From positions 1-37,531 of the forward strand of contig JAETSN010000044.1 of assembly GCA_021769625.1 (NCBI GenBank): 37,531 nucleotides of DNA. The letters are read 5' to 3'. Position numbers and translations under genes: made by a program. The notes below the pieces were generated by a model. That model did not search any database. It was not told the DNA's origin and saw only the letters and a list, made by a program, of their open reading frames with translations. Numbering within the stretch: position 1 is the stretch's first letter; every line of letters starts with the position of its first letter. Below, one piece after another: positions 7,448 through 10,584 of the stretch. The DNA comes from [Clostridium] symbiosum (lineage in GTDB: Bacteria > Bacillota > Clostridia > Lachnospirales > Lachnospiraceae).

Positions 7448-7690
7448 TCAGATAGCTTCATGGAATGTACGGGAGATAACGTCAGCCTGCTGTTCCGGTG
7501 TAAGCTTAATGAAGTTTACGGCATATCCGGAAACACGGATCGTAAGCTGAGGATAATTCTCAGGATGTTTCTGAGCGTCCAGTAACATATCTCTGTTTAA
7601 TACATTTACATTTAAATGATGACCGCCCTTTGTTGCATAGCCATCCAGTAAGTTTACCAGGTTATCAACCTGCACTGTGTTTGCTGCCAT
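7448..7690 (-). CDS. Stand-alone glycyl-radical domain of pyruvate formate-lyase
   Basis: The 80-residue protein equals the C-terminal end of a normal PFL. It opens with [16 protein letters not shown], continues [17 protein letters not shown] and then HPENYPQLT. The radical loop is RVSGYAV with the radical glycine at about G55. The last part is [18 protein letters not shown]. The neighbouring large PFL gene stops just before this region, so this protein must supply the radical glycine in trans. It resembles the autonomous glycyl radical cofactor GrcA (YfiD), which repairs oxygen-cleaved PFL in enterobacteria. Here it seems to be the only glycyl domain at the locus. GGAGGT lies 6 nt before ATG 7690, favouring this start over ATG 7705. 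Confidence 0.9.
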
Positions 7691-7725
7691 TGTTTTTACC
7701 TCCATAGTATTTACATTATCTAAAA

Positions 7726-7941
7726 TTATATACCAGAACCCGAGTAATCATCCAGACCCTGCTCCAGAGTCGGAACGCTGCATGCCAGCGGGGTCCTGGA
7801 ACAATCAGTACAGCCCATGGTCTGAACGGACTTATCCTGCTTACTCTTTTCATCATAATCGATGTTTACATGTCCAACACCGCCTGCCATGCCGGAATCC
7901 AGCATTTTAACAAGATCGTCGATCAAAGCTTTATCATCCAT
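7726..7941 (-). CDS. Degenerate glycyl-domain-like small protein with cysteine tail
   Basis: The 71-residue product sits between the PFL body and the glycyl-radical gene. Its first 30 residues ([20 protein letters not shown] then VNIDYDE) align by eye with the start of the neighbouring glycyl-radical domain ([20 protein letters not shown] then LNVNVLN). The rest diverges: the glycine loop is absent and is replaced by a segment with C44, C47 and C54 ([13 protein letters not shown]) and an acidic end. It looks like a truncated paralogue that gained a redox- or metal-capable tail. A role in docking, protecting or regulating the split enzyme is inference. GGAG precedes the start by 7 nt, and the gene ends 35 nt before the next start. 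Confidence 0.75.
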
Positions 7942-7955
7942 TTTTTACTCCAGTT

Positions 7956-7994
7956 CTGCAGCCGCGCTGCCGGAGGACCGGCTGGCGGCTGCGG
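7956..7994 (-). promoter_or_regulatory. Strong intercistronic hairpin between PFL body and small genes
   Basis: An outer stem, 7956-7965 with 7985-7994 (8 perfect G/C-rich pairs plus 2), encloses an inner 5-bp stem, 7969-7973 with 7978-7982. No T run follows on the minus strand, so it looks like an mRNA processing or stabilising hairpin rather than a terminator. It lies just upstream of the ribosome binding site of the 71-residue gene. Confidence 0.6.
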
Positions 7995-8007
7995 TTTTAC
8001 TTGTTTT

Positions 8008-8096
8008 TTTATTTCAGCTCAAGCTCATATATCCAAGGTGATATCGAGCTATTCAGGCATTATCATGCTTTATTTCAGTTCAAGCTCGATATCACC
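8008..8096. repeat. Direct and inverted repeats duplicating the pflB 3' end
   Basis: A 19-nt segment at 8069-8087, which contains the pflB stop and last codons, recurs at 8008-8026 with one mismatch, 61 bp away. In the same stretch 8037-8050 is a perfect 14-bp inverted copy of 8083-8096. The second copy lies in non-coding sequence. This reads as a partial duplication or rearrangement at the point where the PFL gene was split. Confidence 0.8.
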
Positions 8097-10106
8097 TGAG
8101 AATACCTTATCCTCTTTGCCGAGAGCGCCGGGGATGATCGTGAAGGTATTGGAGATACCATCCTGAGCATCCTTGAACGGCAGTTTGGATACGGAAGAGA
8201 GGGAAGCAACCGCACCGTGGGTATCACGGCCGTGCATCGGGTTAGCACCGGGAGCAAACGGCTGACCTTTCTTACGTCCGTCAGGTGTGTTGCCTGTAGC
8301 CTTACCGTAAGTTACGTTGGAAGTAATGGTAAGGATGGAAGTGGTAGGGATACCGTTTCTGTAGGTGTGGTGTCTTCTGATCGCTGTCATAAATCTGTGA
8401 ACGACTTCCTGAGCGATCTCGTCAACACGGTCATCATCGTTGCCGTATTTCGGGAACTCGCCGGTTGTCTTGAAGTCTACGATCACGCCGTCCTCATCGC
8501 GGACAACTTCAACTTTCGCATACTTGATAGCGGACAGGGAGTCAGCCACGATGGAAAGGCCTGCAACACCTGTTGCGAAGTAACGTTTTACATCTCTGTC
8601 ATGCAGAGCCATCTCAGCTCTCTCATAGCAGTATTTGTCATGCATATAGTGGATGATGTTCAGCGTATTTACATATACATCCGCCTGCCATTCCATCATA
8701 TCCATGAATTTATCTACAACATCATCGTAATCCAGAACGTCGCCTGTCACAGGACGATACTTCGGACCAACCTGTTTCTTGGTAACTTCGTCAACACCGC
8801 CGTTCAAAGCGTACAGCAGACATTTAGCAAGGTTAGCACGAGCGCCGAAGAACTGCATTTCCTTACCGATCACCATGGAGGATACGCAGCATGCGATACC
8901 ATAGTCGTCACCGTGGGTAACTCTCATCAGATCGTCGTTCTCATACTGGATGGAAGAAGTCTGGATAGACATCTTAGCACAGTATCTCTTCCAGTTCTCA
9001 GGAAGCCTTGTGGACCACAGAACCGTCAGGTTGGGTTCCGGTGAAGCGCCCAGATTTTCCAGCGTGTGCAGGAAACGGAAGCTCATCTTTGTAACAAGGG
9101 AACGGCCGTCAACGCCCATACCGCCGAGGGACTCTGTTACCCATACCGGATCGCCGGCGAAGATCTGGTTGTATTCAGGAGTACGAGCGAATTTCACGCA
9201 GCGCAGCTTCATGATGAAGTGGTCAACGAATTCCTGAATCTGTTCCTCTGTGAATGTGCCGTTCTTTAAGTCTCTTTCAGCGTAGCAGTCAAGGAAGGTG
9301 GAAGTACGTCCGAGGGACATAGCAGCACCGTTCTGCTCCTTAACAGCACACAGATAACCGAAGTAAGTAGCCTGGATAGCTTCCTGTACGTTGGAAGCCG
9401 GTTTGGAAATATCGCAGCCGTAAGAAGCAGCCATTTCCTTCATCATCTTCAGAGCTGTGATCTGCTCGGAGATCTCTTCGCGAAGACGGATCACGTCGTC
9501 AGTCATCACGCGTCCTGTGGAGTTTTTCTGATCCTGCTTGTCTTCGATCAGCCTGTCGATACCGTACAGGGCAACACGCCTGTAGTCGCCGATGATACGG
9601 CCGCGGCCGTAAGCATCAGGAAGTCCTGTGATGATGTGGGAGGAACGGCAAGCTCTCATCTCCTGATTGTATGCGTCGAAACAGCCGGCATTATGTGTTT
9701 TCCTGTGTGTGGAGAAGAACTCGGAGATCTCGGGGTCAACTTCATAACCGTTGTCTGCGCAAGCTTTCTCTGCCATACGGATACCGCCGTAAGGCTGCAG
9801 GGATCTCTTGAAGGGAGCGTCTGTCTGGAAACCTACGATGGTCTCTTTGCTCTTGTCAAGGTAGCCCGGGCCGTGGGATGTGATGGTGGAAACAACTTTG
9901 GTGTCCATATCCAGTACACCGCCTGCCTCACGCTCTTTTCTGGAAAGTTCCAGTACCATCTCCCATAAGTCTTTTGTGTTCTGTGTAGGCCCCGCCAGGA
10001 AAGAATCATCGCCCTCGTAAGGGGTGTAGTTCTTCTGGATGAAATCGCGGGTGTTTACTTCGCGGTCCCATTTGTTGCCTACAAAACCTGTCCATTCTGG
10101 TCTCAT
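8070..10106 (-). CDS. pflB: Pyruvate formate-lyase catalytic body lacking the glycyl-radical domain
   Basis: The 678-residue protein has the PFL opening [20 protein letters not shown] and the adjacent catalytic cysteines C406-C407 in GIACCVSSM. It continues through the conserved [18 protein letters not shown] near the end. It then stops at GDIELELK, where a full-length PFL (about 740-760 residues) would go on with the glycyl-radical domain. That domain is encoded separately at 7448-7690. The enzyme converts pyruvate and CoA to acetyl-CoA and formate, in the cytoplasm and anaerobically. The transcript starts from TTGACT-18-TATAAT and the start has an AGGAGG box. This is a clean gene split, not a random truncation, since all pieces are present. 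Confidence 0.93.
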
Positions 10107-10392: not shown

Positions 10393-10584
10393 ATGAGTGG
10401 TATCACCAGAGAAATGACGATCGGAGAGATCCTGAGAACAAATCCCGATGTGGCGCCGATACTGATGGAGGCAGGCATGCATTGTCTGGGATGTCCTTCG
10501 GCACAGGGGGAATCTTTAGAGGAAGCAGCTATGGTACACGGCATCAACATCGATGAGCTGATGACAAGGATCGAACAGGCATAA
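10393..10584 (+). CDS. DUF1858 redox-disulfide domain protein
   Basis: The 63-residue protein matches the DUF1858 pattern: [30 protein letters not shown], shown here by its parts [24 protein letters not shown] and [11 protein letters not shown]. The CxxC pair (HCLGC) is the presumed redox disulfide. The family is often found next to or fused with hybrid-cluster and other iron-sulfur proteins, and its exact role is unknown. It is divergent from the PFL locus, so oxidative protection of glycyl-radical or iron-sulfur enzymes is a reasonable guess. An AGGAGG box is 10 nt upstream, and its own promoter and terminator make it monocistronic. Confidence 0.9.

Follow-up and report, generated by a model that had tools for sequence, protein, structure and literature searches.

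Many anaerobes use pyruvate formate-lyase (PFL) to make acetyl-CoA and formate. Explanations of its oxygen sensitivity usually start from the Escherichia coli enzyme, a single chain. Most glycyl radical enzymes, PFL included, are homodimers of one polypeptide, and more accessory subunits may await identification (accessible part of PMC12590467). In E. coli, a truncated body comprising residues 1–695 together with YfiD has an activity equal to wild type once activated, with weak binding and activation (available sections of PMC8683613), and PflB carrying the G734A mutation produces intermediate formate with GrcA and none without it (excerpts of PMC12338860). Transfer of the radical from a separate glycyl-radical domain (GRD) to C419 is therefore real chemistry. 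In ribonucleotide reductase (RNR), a C-terminal pair of shuttle cysteines, C754/C759, re-reduces the active site (excerpts of PMC11143221). Here we describe a PFL locus in a 37,531-nucleotide stretch of [Clostridium] symbiosum DNA (contig JAETSN010000044.1 of assembly GCA_021769625.1; the window, hereafter), which quite probably encodes a PFL in two parts, with a GRD that is obligate and a cysteine-pair module linked to the enzyme in function. Judged by sequence, the parts exist, are conserved and usually make up the only PFL found in a genome.

The genes lie on the minus strand of the window in the order PFL body, a 71-residue open reading frame (ORF), GRD, activase and ferredoxin (Table 1). 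The body scores 1095.6 bits on TIGR01255 (formate C-acetyltransferase; cut-off 994.2) despite the absent GRD. It aligns to residues 10–681 of the E. coli PFL chain, with the cysteine pair C406/C407, in the motif IACCVSSM, opposite C418/C419. The RVSGYAV loop is not in the body chain and is carried by a separate gene, whose product aligns to E. coli residues 680–758 and places its glycine, G55, at residue 734. No stretch of PFL is therefore missing, and the split falls at about residue 681; as far as the alignments tell, the enzyme is complete, but in two chains. A sequence-only reading of this DNA had claimed that the PFL body ends where the GRD would start while keeping both active-site cysteines, and that a separate 80-residue RVSGYAV protein is encoded in the same cluster beside the activase. 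Alignment of the two proteins to E. coli PFL, in which both catalytic sites are intact, bears out both claims. The GRD frame itself extends over 7448..7705 on the minus strand, and the 80-residue product begins at the ATG at 7690. This product passes the GrcA3 model (NF038360), a family of about 78 residues, only narrowly (159.3 bits against a cut-off of 158), and falls below the cut-offs for GrcA/YfiD (TIGR04365; 99.1 against 170 bits) and GrcA2 (103.9 against 145 bits).

Table 1. Features of the PFL locus and its surroundings, in window coordinates
Feature	Position	Strand	Size	Remarks
PFL body without GRD	10106-8070	-	678 aa	C406/C407 correspond to E. coli C418/C419; Cys-free tail
Middle protein	7941-7726	-	71 aa	GRD-like N-half (helix and strand beta-10 region, by alignment); cysteine pair C47/C54 at C-end
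Stand-alone GRD	7690-7448	-	80 aa	Radical glycine G55 in RVSGYAV; NCBIfam GrcA3
PFL-activating radical SAM enzyme	7334-6573	-	253 aa	TIGR02493, 295.9 bits (cut-off 231.75)
4Fe-4S ferredoxin	6467-6297	-	56 aa	NF058577, 81.1 bits (cut-off 65); downstream of activase
Two strong RNA hairpins	7930-8110	-		Around body stop and before middle gene; z -5.7
Small DUF1858 protein	10393-10584	+	63 aa	Divergent neighbour of PFL body

The same division recurs across the family of the window, of which we surveyed 200 genomes; its close named relatives belong to the Lachnospiraceae. Matches to the body were found in 158 of the 200, with at most five candidates scored in some genomes, and 145 could be classified from the matches listed; the split and fused counts rest on rows transcribed by hand. 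A truncated body is present in 76 of the classified genomes, a fused PFL only in 67, and two are unclear. Among the matches listed, which for solo GRDs extend down to about E 4e-24, every one of the 76 truncated-body genomes has a solo GRD, against 0 of the 67 with a fused PFL only. In 72 of the 76 split genomes the body search gave no second PFL match at E ≤ 1e-100, with only five candidates scored in some; the four that have one are this assembly (G000), G085, G119 and G132. The co-occurrence and the usual lack of a second PFL agree with the proposal of the sequence-only reading that the radical domain is a constitutive separate subunit, not a spare for a full-length PFL.

Both chains evolve under constraint. 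The median dN/dS of the GRD is 0.031 (1898 pairs from 76 loci, with pairs here and below restricted to equal length and dS of 0.1–1.5), and comparison of the window body with ten relatives gives dN of 0.013–0.073 and dS of 0.375–1.414, indicating strong constraint. We give almost no credence to the idea that a frameshift, an assembly error or a decaying gene has produced the split, for which no support was found. Within the family, 76 genomes from 75 genera share the arrangement, which also occurs in other families; the genes are under purifying selection, and ribosome-binding-site-like stretches lie ahead of the body, the 71-residue ORF, the GRD and the activase. The body and GRD genes occupy different frames and are separated by 379 nt, and at five loci in which all three frames coincide, stop codons still close each gene.

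The second PFL match in this assembly bears on another explanation, namely that the 80-residue protein is a GrcA-type spare, that a full-length PFL does the work and that the 678-residue body is a relic. Contig C94 (9.9 kb) indeed encodes a fused full-length PFL with an activase-like ORF before it, and the NCBIfam name of the GRD, GrcA3, also favors a spare part. However, C94 is probably not from this organism. It carries prfB (TIGR00020, 522.7 bits, cut-off 370), a gene that is normally single-copy, and a second prfB-like gene, 76% identical to the C94 copy, lies on contig C106, along with two weaker release-factor matches in the assembly (36% and 46%). In G184, a genome of the same genus in which the one PFL match is the split form, prfB shares 92.9% identity with the C106 copy and 74.9% with the C94 copy. 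From the second prfB and these identities we infer that C94 is probably contamination from another bacterium. Tetranucleotide correlation with window segments is 0.77–0.85 for C94, as compared to 0.86–0.93 for contig C63 and 0.83–0.92 for window segments with one another, but composition is weak evidence here because a 5-kb stretch of C79, from the same assembly, correlates even less with the window (0.59–0.83). With the full-length gene probably a contaminant, a second PFL match missing in 72 of 76 split genomes and the body strongly constrained, the spare-part explanation is very unlikely. The sequence-only reading had held that a full-length PFL elsewhere in the genome would change its view; formally such a gene has been found, but its probable foreign origin leaves that view standing.

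The third ORF, between the body and the GRD, lies inside the very interval that the sequence-only reading discussed and was overlooked there, as were the cysteine tail described below and the spread of the arrangement over Clostridia. Its product, the middle protein, has no Pfam or NCBIfam match and no PDB match by its own sequence, and a middle-protein profile found only unrelated PDB chains (E 0.84 and 1.2). The gene is present in 53 of the 200 family genomes, and 52 of those carry a solo GRD as well. A scan of named genomes gave 323 relatives, and the titles of the best 80 are mostly Lachnospiraceae or members of it (such as Acetatifactor, Parablautia and Kineothrix); the rest have vaguer titles, and there is one Muribaculaceae bin. 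Among 110 middle-gene loci, 108 of them recognized, a split body lies upstream in 105, a GRD follows next in 106, an activase lies within 3 kb in 92 and a fused body occurs in none; a partner is missing at a contig end in L087, L100 and L151. The median dN/dS of the middle gene is 0.10 (745 pairs from 80 loci).

The N-terminal half of the middle protein resembles that of the GRD. An hhalign comparison pairs 30 columns with a probability of 90 and E 1.5e-6, this being a single comparison of shallow alignments. The middle-protein alignment held 27 of 30 fetched loci (L018 was omitted as a near copy, and L039 and L040 were missed by the pattern), and the GRD alignment held 11 hand-picked solo GRDs and the end of one fused PFL, that of C94. 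The middle-protein profile also gives three short matches in the GRDs of solo and fused PFLs, at positions 2–36, and 13 further short matches at GRD starts, ending by position 34, each beside a PFL body match or a solo GRD match. The C-terminal end carries a cysteine motif, which in its commonest forms reads C-x(4-6)-AC-x-[VI]P[TN]. Across 12 diverse middle proteins, C47 and C54 are the only invariant cysteines; the window protein has three cysteines, arranged as CxxC-x6-C. These features make the middle protein a candidate new accessory subunit.

Split genomes without the middle gene place a cysteine motif on the body itself. The middle gene is found in 48 of the 76 split family genomes. In the other 28, the bodies of which were read, 27 have a C-terminal tail with cysteines (two in 19, three in eight), and only that of G130 has none. 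Spacing of C-x4-C, often followed by [IV]PN, occurs in ten of the 28 tails, and alignment of the tails with the C-terminal end of the middle protein gives E 1.8e-8 over 20 columns. Eighteen of the 28 tails were used in this alignment, leaving out L173 (no cysteines), L169, L188 and the CACC or CAC forms L171, L176, L180, L184, L185, L186 and L191. No tail cysteine is present in any of the 106 readable bodies at the 110 middle-gene loci examined. Counted by locus, 90 loci with a full body and a solo GRD divide into 63 with the middle gene only, 25 with the tail only, none with both and two with neither, the last being G002, whose middle gene sits on another contig, and G130, which lacks the gene. 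These 90 were kept by one pattern from 123 loci. The 33 dropped comprise 23 middle-gene loci (contig ends or pattern misses), the tail forms L168, L172, L178, L238, L241, L243 and L244, one locus without a body (L181), and L245 and L247, which have neither gene nor cysteine tail. Since 57 of the 63 middle-gene loci come from a scan with the middle gene itself, the count over 76 genomes is the fairer one. An either-or distribution of this kind, of gene and tail, is a usual sign of two segments acting together.

In a tree of 62 bodies, 55 rows lie on one side of a 100/99 branch and comprise all split forms and four nested fused PFLs, which from this placement are best read as re-fusions. The rows with an adjacent middle gene form one group in the same tree (100/99). 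Of the 79 loci supplied to it, 11 were lost to the end pattern, ten of them fused PFLs, and six had no full body. The fused L205 and L207, which were excluded, are 76% identical to the window body and may belong with the nested fused PFLs. In one fused PFL nested among the split ones (L204, in G096), the body and the GRD are still joined by a CGCEEVTC stretch. Other families and the two PDB chains were included in a second tree, of 61 rows, in which PDB chain 38lb falls within the split clade (50 rows, 99/99), with 38la sister to that clade (51 rows, 100/98). Both trees are midpoint-rooted and contain some long branches.

We also considered whether the split is confined to the family of the window. 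This is contradicted by a class-level sample, in which 134 of 291 genomes matched the body search and split loci were read in seven other families (f142, f151, f155, f158, f159, f186 and f199); in f189, a split locus has an interrupted body frame of 420 aa. Middle-type proteins are encoded in other families at L240 (f142), at L246 and L248 (f159), and at L242 (f151), where the gene follows the GRD. The idea of such confinement had been suggested by a phylum sample of 299 genomes, in which solo frames were found in G000 and G180 only, two short frames in G397 and G226 aside.

A model for the two-part enzyme can be drawn from the biochemistry of E. coli PFL, from which docking, activation and replacement of the GRD are carried over by analogy. 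The body would provide the substrate and thiyl-radical site, and the 80-residue GRD would dock on it and complete the barrel in the way that residues 680–758 do in E. coli. The neighboring activase would put the radical on G55, which would hand it to C407. After oxygen cuts the GRD, a fresh 80-residue piece would be made and docked rather than a whole 760-residue enzyme.

The cysteine module is located either at the point from which a GRD would leave the body or on a protein whose first half is GRD-like. In the reading that we prefer, and hold tentatively by analogy with class Ia RNR, the GRD-like half would dock the middle protein at the vacated GRD site and thereby bring its dithiol to the empty active site. 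There the dithiol would cap the active site or keep the catalytic cysteines C406/C407 reduced, and the tail forms would do so in cis. Such a cap or re-reduction would explain why the module is coupled to the split state, why it lies where it does and why the re-fused L202, L203 and L206 lack it. More doubtful is an extended form of this model, consisting of a permanent body, a disposable GRD cartridge and a dithiol cap that imitates the cartridge's first half and occupies its socket when the socket is empty. The cap would keep the catalytic cysteines usable until a new cartridge arrives, cartridge and cap would compete for one site, and in other lineages the cap would be reduced to a dithiol tail on the body.

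Several observations weigh against a docked dithiol coupled to the split enzyme. An AlphaFold2 prediction of the body and middle protein of L097 has a mean pLDDT of 34.9, too low to support any docking claim, from an alignment of 19 rows that are 86–95% identical to the first. Eight of the 28 tails have a tight CACC or CAC, L169 and L239 have only CC, and L183 and L188 have C-x2-C. The cysteine pair is lacking in L173 (G130), where the gene order is body, activase, GRD; L245 has neither tail cysteines nor a middle gene in the 6 kb read; and the body of L247 (f199) ends without a tail, with a solo GRD present, like 38la, whose chain stops at the body end (a natural end or that of a construct). 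L044 (G006, a genome 67% complete with no PFL match) has a middle gene with no body or GRD in about 1.3 kb on each side. The three re-fused bodies named above lack the cysteines of the module, so a body with an attached GRD can do without it. The truncated E. coli body 1–695 binds and activates YfiD poorly (PMC8683613, sections available), and the natural split must therefore have solved something that E. coli has not. Finally, the cysteines could instead bind metal.

In a different account, the middle protein or tail would serve in assembly or recognition, supplying the equivalent of E. coli residues 696–733 in trans, with the cysteines only stabilizing it. Those residues of the cut E. coli enzyme are required for YfiD binding and activation (PMC8683613, in the same sections), and the resemblance between the N-terminal halves of the middle protein and the GRD would fit such a role. 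The body tails, however, carry the cysteine motif without a GRD-like half. What both forms conserve is therefore the motif and not that half, and we consider this account unlikely. Less likely again is that the cysteines bind a metal or an Fe-S cluster, which would make this a regulatory accessory subunit of the kind represented by BSS beta/gamma and the HPAD small subunit. Small Fe-S accessory subunits are present in other glycyl radical enzymes, with more suspected (PMC12590467, accessible part), and the three cysteines of the window protein are in keeping with this, but the two invariant cysteines of the middle proteins and the mere pair present in 19 of 28 tails are too few for a cluster unless it is shared.

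Two further features of the locus were compared across relatives. Of the 78 middle-gene loci with enough room, 59 have a ferredoxin-like ORF no more than 2.5 kb downstream of the GRD, and the ferredoxin is a possible electron donor. The hairpins between body and middle gene were considered as a general feature and rejected, since z is below −2 in only 13 of 54 relatives and not in the remaining 41.

Other loci of this assembly encode related proteins. A second, different split glycyl radical enzyme, of the PFL2/dehydratase type, lies at positions 198580-202182 of C79 (L003, L014, L226). It has a body of 751 aa, a solo GRD of 78 aa with the loop RVAGYSAYF and its own activase of 345 aa, and no cysteine tail was seen; the G+C of this C79 stretch is 0.42, as against 0.49 for the window. 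Solo GRDs follow bodies similar to that of C79 in G111 (L227) and G110 (L228). In G015, where two bodies matched, a solo GRD is present in L231 and nothing was recognized in L229. A further solo GRD is encoded at positions 13814-14053 of C63 (L010, L199), with no body seen nearby; it matches the operon GRD without differences in the compared core and is 95% identical over the whole protein. Ten other genomes also have a second solo GRD, and no body lies near in the eight such loci read. These second solo GRDs are possibly true spare parts. At positions 65169-67007 of C109 (L005), a PFL-like protein with an 804-aa frame has no Gly_radical family match and ends in VYIVRIHGTFVNF, an unusual radical loop.

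If the two-part enzyme is real, about half of the sampled PFL-bearing genera of the family (76 of 145 classified genomes) have a PFL with a replaceable radical piece, with consequences for how oxygen recovery is understood, how PFL is annotated and how radical enzymes are engineered. It would be the natural counterpart of the artificial reconstitution from body and YfiD in E. coli (PMC8683613, as far as its available sections describe it), and it makes testable whether glycyl radical enzymes have further unannotated accessory subunits, a question taken from the accessible part of PMC12590467.

Already known are the NCBI family GrcA3 for the solo GRD, worded as an autonomous cofactor, and two PDB chains without a GRD. 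Among the matches listed in searches of the open-licence PMC literature, none described a split PFL or the middle protein, and the available sections of PMC9403272, PMC7478625, PMC11528403 and PMC13252398 do not mention a split PFL. The PDB chains, 38la and 38lb ("Formate acetyltransferase"), are PFL chains like the body described here, 38lb falling in the split clade and 38la beside it. A GRD search of the PDB turned up no GRD chain of either entry, and the tail profile matched neither of them, 38lb having 43 residues past its aligned part.

Compared with other described systems, the middle protein is similar to the BSS beta/gamma and HPAD small subunits in being a small, cysteine-bearing accessory subunit of a glycyl radical enzyme. 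Those subunits bind [4Fe-4S] clusters (PMC12590467, accessible part), whereas in the middle protein two cysteines are invariant and the first half is GRD-like. Class Ia RNR of E. coli shares with the ten C-x4-C tails a cysteine pair four residues apart (C754/C759) on the C-terminal tail of a radical enzyme with active-site cysteines, but it is an unrelated protein and serves as an analogy only. We know of no disulfide formed by PFL in each turnover, and any RNR-like role would therefore be protective or restorative. GrcA/YfiD is, like the window GRD, a stand-alone glycyl radical domain able to complete a PFL body. In contrast, GrcA repairs the damaged product of an intact gene and works as a spare beside a full-length PFL, whereas the window GRD is obligate, because the body gene encodes no GRD, and its counterparts mostly occur in genomes without a second PFL match, as counted above; it is also too short to include the disordered N terminus of about 60 residues found in YfiD. 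E. coli PflB has the same TIGR01255 body, cysteine pair, RVSGYAV loop and dedicated activase. There the enzyme is a single chain; here it is cut at the body–GRD junction, with a third gene in between.

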